Part shown: positions 56,041-64,000 of the stretch, one piece after another
How positions within the stretch are numbered: position 1 is the stretch's first letter
How the letters are laid out: every line of letters begins with the position of its first letter
Source: Sideroxyarcus sp.
Lineage (GTDB): Bacteria > Pseudomonadota > Gammaproteobacteria > Burkholderiales > Gallionellaceae
Length of the DNA: 64,000 nt
Assembly (NCBI GenBank): GCA_030652215.1
Contig: JAUSBC010000005.1
Location: forward strand, 1-64,000
Direction of reading: 5' to 3'
The notes under the pieces: model-generated
What the model saw: the letters and a program-made list of their open reading frames with translations, nothing else
What the model was told of the DNA's origin: nothing
The model's database searches: none
Program-made: the position numbers and the translations under genes

Positions 56041-56071
56041 CTTAAGGAAGCCTTAAGTCTGGCCTTCTATT
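56041..56071 (+). promoter_or_regulatory. PmrA/QseB-type box and -10 of the di-haem cytochrome gene
   Basis: CTTAAG at 56041-56046 and 56052-56057 are separated by five bases, matching the PmrA-type direct-repeat layout. A -10-like TCTATT lies 8 bases beyond (56066-56071). The same architecture recurs at 60379-60409. Confidence 0.65.
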
Positions 56072-56107
56072 CTGCCCGCCTCGAATTGCTTGTCTAAAGA
56101 GGTCGGG

Positions 56108-56638
56108 ATGTCACGCATTGCATATATATCGGGTCTCATGGCCGTTTCTGCTGCCATATTGGTGGCGGGCGCGTTAGCGCCTGTTGCGCGGGCAGACGAT
56201 GACCATGGCCGGAAGCACGGCGGCGAAAATCGCGGCAAACCGGTGCAACCGGCGCAAATTAACGCCAAATGGCGGCAGGAGTGTGCGGCTTGTCATATCG
56301 CGTACGCGCCGGGGCTTTTGCCTCCCGAGTCGTGGCGCAAAATCATGGCAGGGCTGGACAAGCACTTCCACACCGATGCTTCGCTGACGGCGTCGGAGAA
56401 TGCCGAGATTACCGACTTTCTGGTGCGCAACGGTTCCAACCGCTGGAGTGCGCCAACGTCACCTCTGACGATCACCGAAAGCGCATGGTTCAAGCGCAAG
56501 CATAACGAGCGCGAGATTGCGCCCGCCGTCTGGAAAAGCCGGCAAGTGACAAGTCCCGCCAATTGCGGTGCCTGCCACACGCAGGCGGAAAACGGCGATT
56601 TTCGGGAACGCAACATCAAAATGCCCAAATGGCGGTGA
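56108..56638 (+). CDS. exported di-haem cytochrome c (DHC family)
   Basis: The 176-residue protein has a signal peptide (about 1-29, ARADD), a His/Gly-rich stretch and two haem sites, CAACH and CGACH. The DHC-type segments KWRQECAACHIAYAPGLLPPESWRKIM and LTITESAWFKRKHNER are present. DHC proteins are periplasmic electron carriers. The ATG at 56108 is preceded by AGAGG. The next genes are a QseBC-like two-component system on the same strand, and the CTTAAG box upstream suggests that system controls it. Confidence 0.9.
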   Translation: MSRIAYISGLMAVSAAILVAGALAPVARADDDHGRKHGGENRGKPVQPAQINAKWRQECAACHIAYAPGLLPPESWRKIMAGLDKHFHTDASLTASENAEITDFLVRNGSNRWSAPTSPLTITESAWFKRKHNEREIAPAVWKSRQVTSPANCGACHTQAENGDFRERNIKMPKWR

Positions 56639-56770
56639 AGGGGCGCGTAGACTCGCCGGTTTCGAGGTTGACGAACCGGAAGCGCTCGTAATCGCTTCCG
56701 CGCGTGGCGGGGTGTCATAATGTCCGTTGTCGCGGTGACAATAATTATGTGCGGTTTGCCTGGATAAAAT

Positions 56771-57439
56771 ATGCGCGTGCTGCTGGTCGAAGATGATGCC
56801 CTGCTGGGCGATGCCATACAGGCCGGATTGAAACAATCCGGCTATGCCGTGGACTGGATGCGCGACGGCGTCTCCGGAGATCAGGCGCTCACTACCGAGG
56901 CGTATGCGGCCGTCGTGCTGGATATTGGGCTGCCGCGTCTTTCCGGGCTGGAAGTGTTGCGTCGGTTGCGCGTCCGCGGCGATCCGATTCCCGTGTTGAT
57001 CCTGACCGCGCGCGATACGGTGAGCGACCGGATCGGGGGGTTGGACGCGGGTGCGGACGACTATTTGCTCAAGCCATTCGACATGGGAGAGTTGGCGGCG
57101 CGATTGCGTGCGCTGATCCGCCGCGCCAGCGGCAAGGCGGAACTGTTGCTGCAGCTCGCCGGAGTAATACTCGATCCCGCCGCGCACCGTGTGGTGTGCC
57201 GGGACAATCCCGTTGAAGTATCCCCCAGGGAATTTGCGGTGCTGCACGCCCTGATGCTGAATGCGGGCAAGGTCATGTCACGCGCGCAGATCGAGGAGCA
57301 GCTTTATGCATGGGGCGAGGAGATCGAGAGCAATGCGGTGGAGGTGCACATCCATCATTTGCGCCGCAAGCTGTTTCCCGAACTGATCGAGACGATACGC
57401 GGCGTGGGATACCTGATCCCCGCCGGCAAGGCGGGTTGA
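56771..57439 (+). CDS. QseB/PmrA-like response regulator
   Basis: The 222-residue protein has a receiver (LLVEDDALLGDAI, phospho-acceptor in VVLDIGLPRLSG, Lys in YLLKPFDMGELAAR) and a winged helix (SRAQIEEQLYAWGEEIESNAVEVHIHHLRRKLF), strongly of the QseB/PmrA subgroup. That subgroup binds CTTAAG-like direct repeats, as found upstream of both cytochrome units here. One base separates it from its kinase gene. Confidence 0.9.
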   Translation: MRVLLVEDDALLGDAIQAGLKQSGYAVDWMRDGVSGDQALTTEAYAAVVLDIGLPRLSGLEVLRRLRVRGDPIPVLILTARDTVSDRIGGLDAGADDYLLKPFDMGELAARLRALIRRASGKAELLLQLAGVILDPAAHRVVCRDNPVEVSPREFAVLHALMLNAGKVMSRAQIEEQLYAWGEEIESNAVEVHIHHLRRKLFPELIETIRGVGYLIPAGKAG

Positions 57440-57440
57440 G

Positions 57441-58793
57441 ATGCATCCTCACGTCTCCCTCAAGCAGCGTTTGCTGGCATTGTCGCTGACGACGGTGTTC
57501 GCGGTGTGGGTTGTGGCCGCTTCTATCATGTATTTCGAGGCGCGCGACGAATTCGACAAAGTGCTGGATGCGCATCTGGCGCAGGCGGCAGCGTTGCTGG
57601 CTGTGCAGGCCGAGCACGAGATTGATGAGTTGGATACCGACCATGCGCCGCTGCTGCACAAGTATGCGCGCAAGGTGTCTTTCCAGGTGTGGGAGCAAGG
57701 CAAGACGCTACGCCTGCATTCCGAAAATGCCCCGCGAGTGCGTTTATCGGGCGACGAGCTGGGTTACAGCAACAATACCATTGATGGAAATCGCTGGCGC
57801 GTGTTCAGCTTCTGGGACGAGAGCGGGCTATACCTGATTCAGGTGGCGGAGCAGGCGGACGTGCGCGACGAACTGGCGAACGATATTGCCATCAATCTGC
57901 TGCTGCCGCTGGCGTTCCTGTTGCCGTTGTTGGCGCTGCTGCTGTGGGCAGCCGTGACGCACAGCTTGCGTCCGCTGGATAAGCTGGCCAAGGAGGTGGA
58001 GCGGCGCGATCCGGAGACGCTGACACCGCTGGATACGGCAACGGCGCCGCGCGAAGTGATGCCGCTGATCGAGCGTCTCAACCGCTTGTTCGTGCGCATA
58101 GACGCCACCATGCAGAAGGACAGGCGCTTCACGGCAGACGCCGCGCACGAACTGCGCACGCCAATCGCGGCGATCAAGGCGCAGGCGCAAGTGGCGCGCG
58201 GTGCCACCGGTAATGCGGAGCGCCTCCATGCGCTTGACAACGCAATTCTGGGCTGCGATCGCGCCACGCATCTGATCGAGCAGTTGCTTACGCTGGCGCG
58301 GGCGGATGCGCCGGGCGGCGGCATGGCGGAAGCGTGCGATCTGCGGGCTATTGCCGCCGGGGTGATCGCGCTCATTGCGCCGTCCGCGCTGGAAAGAGGA
58401 ACGCGCATCGAACTGGCTGAAGGCGATGTCATCGTGCTGCCGGGCAATCGTGAGTTGCTGCGCATACTGATGCGCAATCTGCTCGACAATGCGGTGCGTC
58501 ATACTCCGGAGGGAACGACCATACTGGTAAGCATCGCGCGCGCGCAGGGCGCAGTGTGTCTGTCGGTGAGCGACAACGGCGGCGGTGTCACGGAACAGGA
58601 GATGGGCCGGTTGTCGGAACGGTTTTTCCGTCCGGCCGATACGCGCGGCAGCGGCAGCGGACTGGGGTTGTCCATCGTCAAGCGCATTGCCGAGTTGCAC
58701 GGTGCAGCAATGCACTTGATGCCGTCGGAGGCCAGGCAGGGTTTGTGCGTGCGTGTGATCTTCGTGCGCTCAACGCACGTGCTGCACGAATAG
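57441..58793 (+). CDS. QseC-like sensor histidine kinase
   Basis: The 450-residue protein has two membrane helices (about 12-32 and 150-175) around a periplasmic sensor of about 115 residues. HAMP, HisKA (RFTADAAHELRTPIAAIKAQAQVA) and HATPase_c (LLDNAVRHTPEG, DNGGGV, GSGSGLGLSIV) follow, as in QseC/PmrB. The signal is unknown; a role in sensing redox or metal conditions is suggested only by the surrounding cytochromes. Confidence 0.9.
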   Translation: MHPHVSLKQRLLALSLTTVFAVWVVAASIMYFEARDEFDKVLDAHLAQAAALLAVQAEHEIDELDTDHAPLLHKYARKVSFQVWEQGKTLRLHSENAPRVRLSGDELGYSNNTIDGNRWRVFSFWDESGLYLIQVAEQADVRDELANDIAINLLLPLAFLLPLLALLLWAAVTHSLRPLDKLAKEVERRDPETLTPLDTATAPREVMPLIERLNRLFVRIDATMQKDRRFTADAAHELRTPIAAIKAQAQVARGATGNAERLHALDNAILGCDRATHLIEQLLTLARADAPGGGMAEACDLRAIAAGVIALIAPSALERGTRIELAEGDVIVLPGNRELLRILMRNLLDNAVRHTPEGTTILVSIARAQGAVCLSVSDNGGGVTEQEMGRLSERFFRPADTRGSGSGLGLSIVKRIAELHGAAMHLMPSEARQGLCVRVIFVRSTHVLHE

Positions 58794-58804
58794 CGCGCGT
58801 TCCC

Positions 58805-60100
58805 TCAAGTAGTCCCGAACTTGGTTTCAACCATCACGCCGATTTCCTTGAGCATCGGCGTGGGCAGAATGCCGCCGGCGCATACGATGACCGCATCGTT
58901 GGGGAGCGCGATCATTTTTCCTTCCTGCTCAATAACGACTTTGTCTTTTTCGACCAATTTCACGTTTGATTTCAGGCGCACGGAAATTCTGCCCCTGTCC
59001 GCCATTTCCTTCAGGCGGTCACGGTTTTTCGGTTTGCCGCGCCCGAATGCATCGCTGCGGTAGGAAAGCGTAACGGTGGTGCCGGGTTGCTCGGCGATGG
59101 CGATGGCTGCTTCCAGCGCGCTATCGCCGCCGCCGACGACCAATACGTGCTTGTTCTGGTATTGCTCGGCTTCAATCAGGTGGTACACGACTTTCGGCAG
59201 ATCCTCGCCGGGCACGCCCAGTTTGCGCGGGGTGCCGCGGCGGCCGATGGCGAGCAGCACGGCGCTGGTTTCGTAGGAGCTCCTGGAAGTTTTGACAATG
59301 AAACCTTTGTCGATCTTCGTGATGCTCTCCATGCGCTCGTTGTAATTCAGTTTGATGCCGGTCTTGGCGATGATGCCGTGCCAGAACTCAAGCAGTTTTT
59401 CCTTGCTCACTTCCTTGAAGTGCATTTTGCCGACGACGGGCAGCTTAACCGGGGCGGTCATGACGATCTTGTTGCGCGGGTACTGGTAGATGCAGCCGCC
59501 CAGCGAGCTTTCCTGCTCGATGGTGACATGGCGCAATTTGTGTTCCATCGCACCCAGTGTGGCCGCAAGTCCGGCCGGCCCTGTGCCGACGATGACCACG
59601 TCGTAGGGGTGCTTGCTGCCTTTGAGTTTTGCAATGGATTCGATCGCCTGGGTGCCTTGCCCGGCCGCCTTGCGTATCAGCCCCATGCCGCCGAGTTCGC
59701 CCGCGATGAAAATGCCCGGTACGTTGGTTTCGAAGTTGGGGTTGACCTGCGGGATGTCCATGCCGCGTTTTGCGGTGCCGAACACCAGCTTGATCGCATC
59801 GTGCGGACAGGCTGTGGCGCATGCGCCGTGGCCGATGCAATGGGTCGGGTTGATCAGCACGGCTTTGCCTTTGATCATGCCAATTGCATCTTCCGGGCAC
59901 GCCGCGATACAACTGCCGGCGCCCATGCAGATGTTGGGATTGATTTCAGGGTGTAGCGACGAGGGTTCGGTTAATCCGGCTTCGATGGCTTCGTTAAATA
60001 CCTCGATGGCGGATGACTCTTTCTTGTATCGCCCCCGAAGATAGAAGAACACGATCAACGCGAGGGGGGCCAGGTAGATTGCAAAAGATTCGATATTCAT
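58805..60100 (-). CDS. ferredoxin-flavoprotein NAD(P)-dependent oxidoreductase
   Basis: The 431-residue protein has an N-terminal membrane helix (about 6-22), a ferredoxin-like domain (about 50-110) and a thioredoxin-reductase-like FAD/NAD(P) module (about 140-425) with VVIVGTGPAGLAA and VLVVGGGDSALEAA. The CxxC redox pair of true thioredoxin reductases is absent. The two cluster motifs CMGAGSCIAACP and CIGHGACATACP each lack the second Cys of the standard 4Fe-4S pattern (Ala and His instead). The ATG at 60100 is a conservative start. It is divergent from the b-type cytochrome operon and may feed electrons between NAD(P)H and the cytochromes. Confidence 0.85.
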   Translation of the reverse strand: MNIESFAIYLAPLALIVFFYLRGRYKKESSAIEVFNEAIEAGLTEPSSLHPEINPNICMGAGSCIAACPEDAIGMIKGKAVLINPTHCIGHGACATACPHDAIKLVFGTAKRGMDIPQVNPNFETNVPGIFIAGELGGMGLIRKAAGQGTQAIESIAKLKGSKHPYDVVIVGTGPAGLAATLGAMEHKLRHVTIEQESSLGGCIYQYPRNKIVMTAPVKLPVVGKMHFKEVSKEKLLEFWHGIIAKTGIKLNYNERMESITKIDKGFIVKTSRSSYETSAVLLAIGRRGTPRKLGVPGEDLPKVVYHLIEAEQYQNKHVLVVGGGDSALEAAIAIAEQPGTTVTLSYRSDAFGRGKPKNRDRLKEMADRGRISVRLKSNVKLVEKDKVVIEQEGKMIALPNDAVIVCAGGILPTPMLKEIGVMVETKFGTT

Positions 60101-60651
60101 AATAACCGTGGTAAGGAGGCAAATTGTGGATCGGGTTTCTGTTCGAAATTTCCAAGCTGCACCGGACTGTCCGCCCGCAGTCAGCAGGGGCATTCTATGG
60201 CGTGCTCGCACATCTGACAATTTGAAGCCGAGATTCGTTCATTTGCATGATGAGCTGTTTCGCCATTCCTGTTGAGCAACCAGCCTGTTTGCCTGAAACG
60301 GGGCGCCCAAATGTAATTTTCGCAGGATAAAATCTTGCCGCGAAACCGGGTTGTTGAATTCCCCTGCAAAAAAAAGTGCTTAAGCTTTTCTTAAGCTTGC
60401 TCCTATATTGTCAGAATCGAATAGTGCATGAGTGAATTCTTTAGCCATTTCAACAATATGGTTGTTGGTGGGGGGCGGAAAGCCATGCAATGGAACTCGG
60501 CATATATTCGTTTGCCGGAGACTGACGCAAAGCGACCTGTCGGGCAACATTGGTTTGTGCAGCAAGGCCAATTAGGTTGCCGGCTTGAAAGTGGTGTGTG
60601 TGCGGGAGACTCGCCCGGGCGAAGGGTTATTTAAGAAATTATGCAAAACAA
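60101..60651. other. 551-bp divergent promoter region
   Basis: It holds the CTTAAG box and -10 element at 60379-60409. A possible 68-codon frame at 60428-60634 lacks a ribosome site and resembles nothing known. The 240-base stretch downstream of the putative -10 would be a long 5' leader for the cytochrome operon. Nothing else was recognised. Confidence 0.45.
60379..60409 (+). promoter_or_regulatory. PmrA/QseB-type box and -10 of the cytochrome operon
   Basis: CTTAAG at 60379-60384 and 60390-60395 are separated by five bases, and TATATT lies 8 bases beyond (60404-60409). CTTAAG is its own complement, so the box could also act on the divergent oxidoreductase gene. Same layout as 56041-56071. 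Confidence 0.68.
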
Positions 60652-61548
60652 ATGAGAACAAATACTCAATCGGAACATCTGCACTGGATGCTGTTCATCG
60701 GCGTTGTGGGTGCCATTACGTTCGGGGGCTATTTCGTTCTGTACCCGCAAACGCTATACAAGCCGGGCGAGGAACTGTTCGATTTTGGATACAACCTCGG
60801 CTTGGCCGGCGGTTTGATGATGCTGGTGCTGCTGCTTTATCCCTTGCGTAAGCGCGTCAAGCTCTTCGATAAAATCGGATTTCTGCCGTCCTGGTTCAAA
60901 TGGCACATGGTGCTGGGCATTCTGGGGCCGCTGACCATTCTGTTTCATTCCACTTATCATGTGTATATCCCTTTCATCCACCCCATGGGTTCCCCGAATG
61001 CGGCGGTGGCAATGCTGTGCATGGTGCTGGTTTCGGGCAGCGGAACGTTCGGCCGATTTTTCTATACCAAAATCCACCACGGTCTTTACGGGCGCGTGGC
61101 CACGGTGAACGAGCTGCAGGCCGGACTGGAGCAATCCGGTGATGTAAAGTCGCTGTTCAGTTTCGCCCCGGCAGTGGAGAAAGCACTGGAAGACTTCCGT
61201 GTGCGCGCCGACAAATATGCACGGCAGTCGGGCGCTGGATTCGTGAATTTCATTACGGTGGGCTTTCAGACCGCGCTGTTGTCCAGGTCGCTCTCCAGGG
61301 AGTTGCGCCAGGCCATGCAGGCGCAGGCTGCGCAGAACAATTTCAGCGCCGCGCAGATGGAAAGCATGGAGGCATTGTTCGAGGACTATCGGGACAAGAT
61401 CGCTTCCTACCTCAAGGCGGTCCGCGACGCCGCGCAATTTCACACCTACGAGAGAATGTTCTCGTGGTGGCACATTTTTCACATCCCGCTGGTTTACATG
61501 ATGGTGTTCAGCGCCCTTTATCATGTTTACGCGGTTCACGCATATTGA
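60652..61548 (+). CDS. b-type cytochrome-like membrane protein
   Basis: The 298-residue protein has about five membrane helices with His residues placed like haem ligands: FKWHMVLGILGPLTILFHSTYHVYIPFIH, TKIHHGLYG and WWHIFHIPLVYMMVFSALYHVYAVH. A soluble helical insert (about 150-245) sits between them. It resembles ferric-reductase-type/cytochrome b561-like membrane subunits; I cannot name the family. The ATG at 60652 is the first with the helical start. It leads an operon with the multihaem cytochromes and could pass electrons across the inner membrane. Confidence 0.72.
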   Translation: MRTNTQSEHLHWMLFIGVVGAITFGGYFVLYPQTLYKPGEELFDFGYNLGLAGGLMMLVLLLYPLRKRVKLFDKIGFLPSWFKWHMVLGILGPLTILFHSTYHVYIPFIHPMGSPNAAVAMLCMVLVSGSGTFGRFFYTKIHHGLYGRVATVNELQAGLEQSGDVKSLFSFAPAVEKALEDFRVRADKYARQSGAGFVNFITVGFQTALLSRSLSRELRQAMQAQAAQNNFSAAQMESMEALFEDYRDKIASYLKAVRDAAQFHTYERMFSWWHIFHIPLVYMMVFSALYHVYAVHAY

Positions 61549-61564
61549 AGCGGGGCGCAGGCAA

Positions 61565-63151
61565 ATGATGGCGCTCTTACGTACCCTTGCACTTGCAAGC
61601 TTCCTGCTTGCGCTTCCCCTGCAGGCGCAGGCTAACAAGTTGCTCATGCCGGGCGATGTCATCAAGGGTCATGCCAAGGAAGAAGAAGCCTGCGAGAAGT
61701 GCCACAAGAAATTCGACAAGGCGGCGCAATCGGGCCTGTGTGCCGATTGCCACAAGGAAGTCGGCAAGGATATCGCCGATAAAAAGGGTTTTCATGGACG
61801 GGCGGAGCCGGGCAAGGAATGCAAGGAATGCCACCCCGACCACAAGGGGCGCGACGCCAAGGTTGCGGAATTCGATCACGACAAGTTCGATCACGCCAAG
61901 ACGGACTATCCGTTAAAGGGCGGTCACCTGAACGAGAAAGTGAAGTGCAAGGACTGTCACAAGCCGGAAAAGAAATTCCGCGAAGCCCCCAGTTACTGCA
62001 ACGAGTGCCACAAGAAAGACGACAAGCACAAGGGAGGCCTAGGCACGGACTGCGCGAAGTGCCATGTCGAAAAAGACTGGAAGACGACCGAATTTAACCA
62101 CGACAAGACCAAGTTCAAGTTGACGGGCAAGCACAATGACGTGAAATGCGCCAAGTGCCACATCGACAACAAGTTCAAGGACACACCGCTGGACTGCAAG
62201 TCGTGCCACAAGAAGGACGACGACAAGGCGCACAAGGGCAAGCTCGGTCCGAAGTGCGAATCCTGCCACACAGCGAAGGACTGGAAAGAGGTTCTGTTCG
62301 ATCACGACAAGAAGACCAAGTATCCGCTGCTCGGCAAGCACAAGGAAGTGAAGTGCGACAAGTGTCACATCGACAAGAAGTACAAGGACACGCCCAAGGC
62401 ATGCAGCTCCTGCCACAAGAAGGATGACGAAAAGGCGCACAAGAACAAATTCGGCAGCAAATGCGAGACTTGTCACACCGAAAAGGATTGGAAGGAAAGC
62501 ATATTCAATCACGACAAGACCAAATTCAAATTGCTGGGCAAGCACCAGAAAGCCAAGTGCGTGACTTGCCACAAGGGCGATCTGTACAAGGACAAGATCA
62601 AGGACATGACCTGTCTTGCCTGTCATGAAAAGGACGACAAGCACAAAGGCCAGGAAGGCAAGAAGTGCGAGACATGCCATAACGAGGAGCTGTGGACCAA
62701 GACCACTTTCAATCACAACAAGATGTCGACCTACCCGTTGCTGGGGCGGCATGCACTGGTGGCTTGCAAGAAGTGCCATGCTGCGCCGACCTTCAAGGAT
62801 GCGAAGTCGGACTGCTGGTCGTGCCATGAGAAGGACGATGTGCACAAACGCAAGCTGGGTACGGAATGCCAGACTTGCCACAATGCGCGCGACTGGAAGG
62901 CGTGGGACTTCGACCACAACAAGACCGGCTTCAGGCTGGACGGGGCGCACAAAAAAGGCGCCAACAACTGCTACGCCTGCCACAAGCGTCCGATGGACAA
63001 GAAGGTGCTGGTAATCAATACCTGCGGCGGTTGCCATGATCGTGACGATGTCCACAACGGCAGCTTCGGCGACCGTTGCGAGCGGTGTCATATAGGCAAC
63101 GATTGGAAGCAAATCAAGATAGGCGTAACCACAAGCTCGCGCAAAAAATAG
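61565..63151 (+). CDS. exported 21-haem cytochrome c made of seven tri-haem modules
   Basis: The 528-residue protein has a signal peptide (about 1-24, QAQAN) and 21 CxxCH motifs, with no other recognisable domain. They fall into seven repeats of about 65-70 residues, each with three haems and a shared frame (GKH..VKC..CH, FKDTP..C.SCHKKDD, HKG..G..C.TCH, DWK..FNHDK). This resembles cytochrome c7-type modules. It is very rich in Lys and Asp. No membrane helix follows the signal, so it is probably periplasmic. It is followed by another multihaem gene, a pair compatible with porin-cytochrome conduits of iron oxidisers (for example PCC3), which is inference. Confidence 0.93.
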   Translation: MMALLRTLALASFLLALPLQAQANKLLMPGDVIKGHAKEEEACEKCHKKFDKAAQSGLCADCHKEVGKDIADKKGFHGRAEPGKECKECHPDHKGRDAKVAEFDHDKFDHAKTDYPLKGGHLNEKVKCKDCHKPEKKFREAPSYCNECHKKDDKHKGGLGTDCAKCHVEKDWKTTEFNHDKTKFKLTGKHNDVKCAKCHIDNKFKDTPLDCKSCHKKDDDKAHKGKLGPKCESCHTAKDWKEVLFDHDKKTKYPLLGKHKEVKCDKCHIDKKYKDTPKACSSCHKKDDEKAHKNKFGSKCETCHTEKDWKESIFNHDKTKFKLLGKHQKAKCVTCHKGDLYKDKIKDMTCLACHEKDDKHKGQEGKKCETCHNEELWTKTTFNHNKMSTYPLLGRHALVACKKCHAAPTFKDAKSDCWSCHEKDDVHKRKLGTECQTCHNARDWKAWDFDHNKTGFRLDGAHKKGANNCYACHKRPMDKKVLVINTCGGCHDRDDVHNGSFGDRCERCHIGNDWKQIKIGVTTSSRKK

Positions 63152-63196
63152 TATGCGGGCTGTGGGGCGGAAACGTTAATCGAGGGAGGGTGGATC

Positions 63197-64000
63197 ATGA
63201 AACGACTGTTGACGATATTGGGTAATGTGCTTGCAGCGGTGCTAACCGTGTTTGCATTGCAGGCGAGTGCGGCGCCGCAAATGGCCGGGCGCGACTTCAG
63301 CCACATGACCACCGGCTTTCCGTTAACTGGAGTGCATGCAACTGCGGCGTGCGAAACCTGCCACGTGGCCGGGGTGTTCAAAGGCACGGCGAGGAATTGC
63401 GACGGTTGCCATGCCCTGGGCCGGCGCGTCGTGGCAACGCCCAAATCCAGCAACCACATCGTGACCGATGCGGAGTGCGATACCTGCCATTTCAATGCCG
63501 CCACGTTTCTGGGGGCGCGTTACAACCACGGCAATGCACAGCCCGGACAGTGCATGAGTTGCCATAACGGCAGGCTGTCCACGGCCAAACCGGCGAGCCA
63601 CAACAGCGGAAACAAAGCGACCAATTCCTGCGACCAATGCCACCGTTCCTACACTTGGCTGCCGGCGAGCTGGAATCACATCGGTGTGGCACCCGGGACT
63701 TGTGCAAATGCGGGTTGCCATGTGCAGGGCTCCAACCAATATTTCCGGGGTTCAACCCATACCGGATTCCAACTGTCCCATCCCGTGTGCGACGATTGTC
63801 ACAACATGTATGCCTGGAGTCCTGCCCCGTACAAGCACAACAGCCCGGCGCTGTGTTCGAGTTGCCACAACGGGACAACCGCCACCGGCAAAGGGCCGAG
63901 CCACGGATACACGACAGCCGAATGCAATACCTGCCACAGAAATACGATTAGCTGGGCGGGCGCCAGTTATCACTCGGGCGCCGTGGCGGGCATCTGCGGG
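63197..64000 (+). CDS. multihaem cytochrome c (5' part, runs off window)
   Basis: The frame is open from the ATG at 63197 to the window end (268 codons). A signal peptide (1-26, QASAAP) is followed by eight CxxCH motifs (CETCH, CDGCH, CDTCH, CMSCH, CDQCH, CDDCH, CSSCH, CNTCH) and one unusual CX4CH (CANAGCH, about residue 178). It has NHG.A...C.SCHNG modules, unlike the Lys-rich protein upstream, and could be an outer-surface partner. GAGGGAGGGTGGATC precedes the ATG. Its full haem number is unknown. Confidence 0.9.
   Translation, partial: MKRLLTILGNVLAAVLTVFALQASAAPQMAGRDFSHMTTGFPLTGVHATAACETCHVAGVFKGTARNCDGCHALGRRVVATPKSSNHIVTDAECDTCHFNAATFLGARYNHGNAQPGQCMSCHNGRLSTAKPASHNSGNKATNSCDQCHRSYTWLPASWNHIGVAPGTCANAGCHVQGSNQYFRGSTHTGFQLSHPVCDDCHNMYAWSPAPYKHNSPALCSSCHNGTTATGKGPSHGYTTAECNTCHRNTISWAGASYHSGAVAGICG

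Follow-up and report, generated by a model that had tools for sequence, protein, structure and literature searches.

The locus considered here lies in Sideroxyarcus sp. (assembly GCA_030652215.1), where a window of 64,000 nucleotides (positions 1-64,000 of contig JAUSBC010000005.1, which comprises 152,676 bases and runs on beyond the window's end at 64000) was analysed and the region 56041-64000 studied. Genes were typed by Pfam and NCBIfam profile matches, and haems were counted as CXXCH motifs (Table 1). The gene inventory of the original prediction, namely a di-haem cytochrome, a QseBC/PmrAB-like pair, an oxidoreductase, a b-type protein, a 21-haem cytochrome and a further multihaem cytochrome, was borne out. 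The region consists of two known modules, a reduced SHP operon on the left and a complete PCC3 porin-cytochrome conduit on the right.

Table 1. Features of the SHP operon and PCC3 cluster (contig positions).
Feature	Position	Strand	Remarks
Box 1, CTTAAGGAAGCCTTAAG	56041..56057	+	exact box; 50 bp 5' of DHC start codon (56108)
-10-like TATTCT, behind box 1	56068-56073	+	
DHC di-haem cytochrome c	56108..56638	+	PF09626; 2 CXXCH; opens reduced SHP operon
Response regulator, OmpR-family, QseB/PmrA-like	56771..57439	+	Pfam/NCBIfam
Membrane histidine kinase, QseC-like	57441..58793	+	2CSK_N sensor, HisKA, HATPase_c
Oxidoreductase	58805..60100	-	Fer4_10 (4Fe-4S) and YpdA-like FAD/NAD(P) domain, pyridine-nucleotide-disulphide type
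Box 2, CTTAAGCTTTTCTTAAG	60379..60395	+	exact box; 256 bp 5' of IMP start codon
-10-like TATATT, behind box 2	60404-60409	+	
PCC3 inner-membrane protein (IMP)	60652..61548	+	predicted di-haem b-type; motifs by eye
PCC3 multihaem cytochrome, presumed periplasmic	61568..63151	+	21 CXXCH
PCC3 multihaem cytochrome, presumed extracellular	63197..64000, on to contig position 64570	+	457 aa, 14 CXXCH
Outer-membrane barrel gene	about 64685-66844		3' of 14-haem cytochrome gene; 719-745-aa protein

The SHP operon has been described as comprising genes for SHP, DHC, cytochrome b, a response regulator and a QseC-like kinase, SK2 (Meyer et al., 2010; PMC2909971). As in that description, DHC, regulator and kinase lie here in one operon, but the SHP and cytochrome b (b561) genes are missing from the Sideroxyarcus copy and PCC3 follows it; within the window, no match to the SHP profile (PF09086, DUF1924) was found near box 1. 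In relatives, the orthologous operon carries the full SHP-DHC-cytochrome b-regulator-kinase set. Regulation of the operon was merely presumed in 2010, and neither an operator nor a tie to a surface conduit was found for it in the accessible text of that paper (PMC2909971).

PCC3 was described in 2017 (He et al., 2017; PMC5566968) and featured in a Gallionellaceae pangenome in 2023 (PMC10734462). Its inner-membrane protein is defined by two WX3HX13H motifs together with SGXXG (PMC5566968); the 298-aa protein encoded here shows, by eye, two WX3HX13H motifs and one SGXXG. It has no Pfam or NCBIfam match, its b-type assignment coming from the motifs, and its structure model is helical at modest confidence (pLDDT 65). 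The locus shares with published PCC3 clusters an IMP of about 300 aa, a 21-haem periplasmic cytochrome and a porin (PMC5566968, PMC10734462), while its extracellular cytochrome has 14 haems, 10-35 being reported in Gallionellaceae; the cell locations of both cytochromes are presumed. The porin gene sought beyond position 64000 is present as a barrel gene directly downstream of the 14-haem cytochrome gene, making the right half a complete PCC3 cluster. The barrel protein has no Pfam match, and its fold is taken from an orthologue (L119, 76% identical) whose model has, by our count, 22 strands from residue 282 on (pLDDT 79, pTM 0.51); among the 50 Foldseek matches listed for that model nearly all are porins, ushers and other outer-membrane barrels, with TM-scores of at most 0.43. 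The oxidoreductase, which is likely to have an N-terminal membrane anchor, is present at 32 of 36 PCC3 loci of the same type, and from its domains alone it could offer a route from NAD(P)H.

The two modules are each preceded by a box that the original prediction had called identical; this holds for the half-sites, whereas the 5-bp spacers differ. Both boxes are exact copies of CTTAAG-N5-CTTAAG and are the sole matches in the window at up to two mismatches, a tolerance at which shuffled windows yielded a mean of 0.50 sites and 8 of 100 shuffles reached two. The 3.64-Mb genome has four exact sites, including boxes 1 and 2, against none for a backwards control, ruling out a chance origin of the two boxes. 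Family-wide, 82 exact sites were counted against 30 for the control (hand-summed totals), and in six genomes a looser box (YTTAAG twice) did not stand out from its control (14 vs 11), indicating that single sites can be chance. The regions upstream of IMP in 36 loci were also scanned with all 180 permutations of the half-site: the exact box occurred in five loci, four permuted forms, all register shifts of the motif, in one locus each, and the rest in none, as implied by the mean of 0.05; with one mismatch allowed, the box was found in seven loci, the shifted forms TTAAGC and GCTTAA in seven and five, and the other forms shown in two at most. Spacers of 4 or 6 bp gave no site under three mismatches in any of 42 loci.

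Beyond this genome the box accompanies the SHP operon. It stands 5' of the orthologous operon in 9/9 PCC3-linked loci (at most one mismatch), and SHP genes across the order have it in front in 16 of 30 promoters at up to one mismatch and in 23 at up to two, mostly at -34 to -68. These occurrences suggest that CTTAAG-N5-CTTAAG, a candidate operator, is probably that of the SHP-operon regulator. Kinase orthologues, delimited by a cut-off of 57% identity that we set ourselves, were found in 58 places (five with one in-frame stop), and 30 of these have an exact box within 4 kb upstream where 0.04 would be expected; 75 of the 82 exact sites entered this count, two of G000, two of G154 and three of G155 being left out. 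Among 20 loci chosen for the kinase, 12 were chosen also for a known exact box; seven of the remaining eight have the box at up to one mismatch. The box is also found in front of b561/SHP/DHC modules, peroxidase-like genes, pntA and other genes, some without an evident link to electron transfer, in a survey whose loci beyond kinase and PCC3 were picked for having a box away from both.

At PCC3 loci the box is less constant. The DHC-regulator-kinase genes, the oxidoreductase gene and the IMP gene adjoin one another in nine of the 36 same-type loci (nine genomes, the window included), confirming that the gene order is conserved in relatives; in one of these, G141, the contig stops near the IMP gene and the rest of PCC3 is out of view. 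Allowing 0-1 mismatch, the box stands upstream of IMP in 7 of 17 loci whose genome is kinase-positive and in none of 19 whose genome is kinase-negative (Fisher p 0.002, counting loci as independent despite shared descent). Related genomes are dependent data points, G128 and G152 being near-identical at the locus, and genomes of at least 90% completeness account for only 8 of the 19 kinase-negative loci. The other 29 of the 36 loci show three or more mismatches. A second genus has the box inside PCC3, between its two cytochrome genes, in 2 of 11 kinase-positive loci vs 0 of 11 kinase-negative loci, one of which (G008) has a site at two mismatches; these 22 loci are part of the IMP matches, and for six of them the sequence covered is short and stops ahead of the second cytochrome gene. 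A box common to all PCC3 clusters was ruled out, as it is absent from 13 IMP promoters outside the family, where the IMP promoter alone was searched, and from six diverged copies (L082-L086 and L010), L010 being the Sideroxyarcus genome's own second PCC3. The regulatory link between the two-component pair and the cytochrome units thus gains comparative support from box conservation and kinase co-occurrence. The notion of a sensor dedicated to the electron route is not supported: the regulator belongs to an order-wide SHP operon, the box precedes other genes as well and most PCC3 loci examined have no box before IMP.

The half-site type, head-to-tail order and 5-bp spacer are those of the PmrA box of Klebsiella and Salmonella, and the regulator is likewise of the OmpR winged-helix type (PMC3973317). 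Aligned by eye with the PmrA contact residues given in that source, it keeps the base-contacting N188, H193 and H195, with T187 replaced by Ser and K153 by Arg. Both proteins fall below the NCBIfam equivalog cut-offs, the regulator scoring 252.8 vs 345 (QseB) and 239.7 vs 330 (PmrA), and the kinase 284 vs 475 (QseC) and 213.2 vs 314 (PmrB). The PmrA regulon is of the lipid A type, whereas the putative regulon here is rich in cytochromes and electron transfer. An alignment of 31 kinase sensor regions contains a conserved acidic stretch (HE[IL]DELETEH-like) that is absent from two paralogues of 36-38% identity and partial in a 50% relative (L138); that this periplasmic patch might sense iron is little more than a guess.

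We consider it likely that the kinase and regulator of the SHP operon control both their own operon and PCC3 through the shared box, acting as activators. The QseC-like kinase would perceive a periplasmic signal and phosphorylate the PmrA/QseB-like regulator, a dimer of which would occupy the two half-sites of CTTAAG-N5-CTTAAG in head-to-tail fashion, both before its own operon, giving autoregulation, and before the PCC3 IMP gene. Binding would most likely activate transcription, since the second half-site falls close to the -35 region and a -10-like element follows the boxes at a set distance of 8-10 bp. PCC3 would then connect the quinone pool, via the IMP, with the 21-haem periplasmic wire, the barrel of about 22 strands and the 14-haem surface cytochrome, a putative path for electrons.

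Three other readings bear on this proposal. Box 2 may repress, or may serve the divergent oxidoreductase gene instead of PCC3: it sits in a divergent promoter region, and in four loci (L059, L061, L066 and L067) about 35-45 bp separate the box from the start of the oxidoreductase gene, as against about 180 bp for IMP. We regard this as unlikely, given that in the window box 2 and the oxidoreductase start are 278 bp apart and that, over seven boxes, the -10-like element scores higher in the IMP direction (3.14 of 6 at +10) than in the opposite one (best 2.43). PCC3 might alternatively have landed beside the SHP operon, with box 2 a leftover without effect. The box before IMP is indeed missing from 10 of the 17 kinase-positive loci, including four of the nine kinase-adjacent ones (G150, G141, G155 and G137). 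Yet the exact box and its -10-like element persist in several genomes whose flanks barely align, and another genus has the box within PCC3; moreover, two of the seven loci with an IMP box (G140 and G136, one mismatch) belong to genomes in which the kinase operon sits on a different contig, so the box cannot be explained by adjacency alone, and a neutral origin appears very improbable.

It is also conceivable, though quite improbable, that another PmrA/QseB-type regulator reads the box and the adjoining pair is a bystander. Further OmpR-type regulators, 33-36% identical, are encoded in the window, and 14 of the 75 listed boxes occur in genomes without a kinase orthologue. A kinase paralogue (36-39%) found in G146, G147 and G154 lies about 6.6 kb from an exact box. 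In G146 and G147 this box precedes a CusC-like gene, and in these two genomes the paralogue has another box, with one mismatch, about 1 kb upstream. Against this stand the association of the box with SHP-type operons across the order and the PCC3 counts, in which no box at up to one mismatch was found without the orthologue (0/19 and 0/11). Control by the SHP-operon pair remains our preferred reading.

While the parts are known, the proposed regulatory link is new, being described nowhere in the open papers searched by term. No PCC3 regulator was found in these papers, including the accessible text of PMC2909971, PMC5566968, PMC10734462, PMC8788666, PMC12442390 and PMC12016527. The box before IMP and the linked two-component system distinguish the locus from PCC3 as published (PMC5566968, PMC10734462): in the available text, "two-component" occurs in neither paper and "regulat" not once in PMC5566968, and the one "regulator" in PMC10734462 is apparently unrelated to PCC3. 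No expression data were found for any box-bearing genome. The genome that we take to be that of Sideroxydans lithotrophicus ES-1 (G124) has no box before PCC3, and published ES-1 expression was for that reason set aside as a test of the box; the SHP operon of that genome (L134) has the box at one mismatch. Both PCC3 copies of ES-1 were reported to be lower with Fe(II) than with thiosulfate (PMC8788666), and one PCC3 copy of Sideroxydans CL21 had an inner-membrane gene that rose with iron-oxidising ability (PMC12442390); PCC3 has been described as functionally unverified (PMC12442390).

The position of the PCC3 box, before IMP in one genus and before the extracellular cytochrome in another, brings to mind a speculative and rather doubtful scenario, in which an order-wide cytochrome regulon, run by the SHP-operon pair through an old CTTAAG-N5-CTTAAG operator, repeatedly captured PCC3 in relatives of iron oxidisers and the acidic patch of the kinase senses iron or redox state outside the cell. 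If true, cells would build the electron wire only in the presence of an electron source or sink. Many iron oxidisers have PCC3, and a candidate regulator with a short operator provides a handle on the signal to which PCC3 may respond. The box would let responding genomes be predicted, and the same operator allows the regulon of the SHP operon to be tested.

All of the genes that the original prediction had named in the stretch 56041-64000 were borne out by reading frames and domain searches, and neither Pfam nor NCBIfam returned a match for its inner-membrane protein (IMP). The contig extends beyond the window to a total of 152,676 bases, in a genome that is approximately 90% complete and divided among 128 contigs.

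Features of the stretch 56041-64000
Feature	Position	Basis or remark
Box 1, before DHC	56041-56057	exact CTTAAG-N5-CTTAAG; -10-like TATTCT 10 bp past the box
DHC, di-haem cytochrome c	56108-56638	reading frame and domain search
OmpR-type response regulator (RR)	56771-57439	reading frame and domain search
QseC-like kinase	57441-58793	reading frame and domain search
4Fe-4S/YpdA-like oxidoreductase	60100-58805	divergent; reading frame and domain search
Box 2, before IMP	60379-60395	exact CTTAAG-N5-CTTAAG; -10-like TATATT 8 bp past the box
IMP, with b-haem motifs	60652-61548	reading frame
21-CXXCH cytochrome	61568-63151	reading frame and haem motif count
Second multihaem cytochrome	63197, continuing past the window	457 aa, 14 CXXCH

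In relatives, the same RR and kinase are held in an operon of the order SHP (DUF1924)-DHC-cytochrome b561-RR-kinase, of which the window copy retains DHC, RR, and kinase. The arrangement in relatives is the one given, in the portion of the paper cited here, for the SHP operon with a QseC-like 'SK2' kinase (Meyer et al., 2010; PMC2909971). The right half of the stretch fits the porin-cytochrome cluster PCC3 as set out in the cited portions of two papers (PMC5566968; PMC10734462), because IMP carries two WX3HX13H motifs and one SGXXG motif and is accompanied by the cytochromes and a predicted barrel protein. The latter (719-745 aa) is encoded on the contig beyond the window, directly after the 14-CXXCH cytochrome. 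The structure of its 76% identical orthologue at locus L119 was predicted from 20 input sequences, giving a beta domain at the N terminus together with helical repeats and, by our count, 22 strands (mean pLDDT 79, pTM 0.51); nearly all Foldseek matches listed were barrels, porins and ushers among them, and had low TM-scores. The same genome has a second, diverged PCC3 copy (L010, contig C65, approximately 65.4-75.7 kb) with a gene for a 1158-aa cytochrome and an additional 21-haem-type cytochrome gene interrupted by the contig end; this copy has neither a box before IMP nor the oxidoreductase. At three other loci (L069, L071, and L072), IMP genes 68-69% identical were found with PCC3 cytochromes, porin, and oxidoreductase unmatched within the stretch fetched.

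The oxidoreductase lies within 32 of 36 PCC3 loci in the Gallionellaceae, 31 times divergent and adjoining IMP and once downstream (L073), and within 11 of 13 outside the family, irrespective of kinase presence. Because it is found in loci with or without the kinase, it is assigned by this distribution to PCC3 and not to the regulator, and it seems to be a PCC3 partner that has gone unlisted (in the window, L047-L081, and L165-L177). In the main text of the 2017 PCC3 paper, as distinct from its figures and supplements, the words 'ferredoxin' and 'FAD' are absent and both mentions of 'Fe-S' refer to PCC4 (PMC5566968).

The two boxes are half of the four exact sites in the genome, where the box read backwards has none. 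The others lie approximately 180 bp before pntA (L015) and near dnaX (L016; gene names by our reading), and a site with one mismatch lies upstream of a cytochrome b561-SHP-DHC module at another place in this genome (L245). The box has the form of the Salmonella PmrA box, in which CTTAAG and XTTAAT stand head to tail 5 bp apart, and the regulator can be aligned to PmrA/BasR along its entire length; by eye, it keeps three of the five specific DNA-contact side chains described in the cited portion of the PmrA study, the other two being conservatively changed (PMC3973317). For 30 operon boxes, a set that includes two sites in L131 and two near a paralogous kinase, agreement with TATAAT is highest 10 bp past the box, with a mean of 3.63 of 6 versus 1.55 overall, and the same offset is best for seven IMP boxes (3.14 of 6 versus 1.72). 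PmrA and PhoP activate from a box close to the -35 region; since the box here sits so near that region, putative activation in the same manner is suggested.

An exact box is present in 53 of 158 family genomes, with 82 sites in total versus 30 for the backwards control (our sums). Kinase orthologues (at least 57% identity, a cut-off of our choosing) occur at 58 places; for 30 of them an exact box lies no more than 4 kb upstream, versus 0.04 expected (75 of the 82 boxes used). A box with at most one mismatch precedes the operon at 18 of 20 kinase loci fetched, but not at L139 or at L138, a 50% relative. Of the 20, 12 were known in advance to contain an exact box, and seven of the other eight have a box with at most one mismatch. 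Across the Burkholderiales, 70 of 300 genomes yielded an SHP protein, and at the best 30 places, three of them in family members, a box precedes SHP with at most one mismatch in 16 and at most two in 23. On the kinase-locus counts and these order-wide counts, the operator is judged to belong with the SHP-type operon and to be old.

Boxes distant from both kinase and PCC3 were also inspected, with genes lacking a Pfam match named by our reading. They adjoin cytochrome b561/SHP/DHC sets (L144, L146, L149, L158), SHP (L157, L160, L182, L188), NAD/2Fe-2S reductase genes (L145, L148, L151), multihaem cytochromes (L156, L159, L191, L192), di-haem peroxidase-like genes (L179, L186, and also L247), pntA (L150), and a CusC-like gene (L152-L154); the remaining sites inspected had no evident electron-transfer gene except for a cytochrome-like gene within the kinase locus set (L131, L138). 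The pntA arrangement, an exact box approximately 180 bp upstream of this NAD(P) transhydrogenase gene (our reading), occurs in two genomes of the genus (L015:5196, L150:3924). Three genomes have an exact box before the CusC-like efflux gene. At two of these loci, L153 and L154, a QseC-like paralogue (36-38%) is encoded approximately 6.6 kb from the exact box, has a one-mismatch box approximately 1 kb upstream of it, and is perhaps a sister system using the same operator. In two genomes, an exact box stands 23-39 bp upstream of an endonuclease/exonuclease-like gene (L184:2529, L185:2484; our reading).

Forty PCC3-type loci were fetched, 35 of which form, with the window, a closer-type set. Within 400 bp upstream of IMP, a box with no more than one mismatch was found in 7 of the 17 loci whose genomes have the kinase and in none of the 19 whose genomes lack it (Fisher p 0.002, kinship between genomes ignored); 11 of these 19 are from genomes less than 90% complete, in which kinase absence is less certain. 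With G128 and G152 merged and three orphan IMP loci removed, the counts are 6 of 14 and 0 of 18 (p 0.003). All remaining closer-type loci have at least three mismatches. DHC-RR-kinase, oxidoreductase, and IMP are consecutive in nine genomes including that of the window (in one, G141, the contig stops before the rest of PCC3); box 1 occurs with at most one mismatch in all nine and an exact box 2 in five. Two genomes, G140 and G136, have box 2 with one mismatch and the kinase operon on a different contig. A further set of 22 loci represents a second genus (21 loci) and a third (one locus), with six of the stretches too short to reach the second cytochrome. Here a box with at most one mismatch was found in two of the 11 kinase-positive genomes, G056 and G081, and in none of the 11 kinase-negative ones. 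In both G056 and G081, which had first been picked out by their boxes, it lies between the two PCC3 cytochrome genes, and G081 has another before IMP. In G054, an exact box is upstream of a separate extracellular-cytochrome and porin pair (L156). Outside the family, none of 13 PCC3 loci examined has a box before IMP.

The genome that we take to be S. lithotrophicus ES-1 has no box before PCC3. In the cited portion of a study of that strain, PCC3 was lower on Fe(II) versus thiosulfate (PMC8788666); for the present system, the papers searched gave no result on binding, expression, or electron transfer. When 11 IMP upstream regions were aligned, the boxes of L059, L061, L066, and L067 had common flanks, and the window, L047, and L052 had boxes that could not be aligned with this group; the non-aligning flanks hint that the box before IMP may have been gained several times. 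Upstream of the operon, queE and queC are found in both the window and L125, and queC also in L059 (names by our reading), from which the operon's location looks older than its linkage to PCC3.
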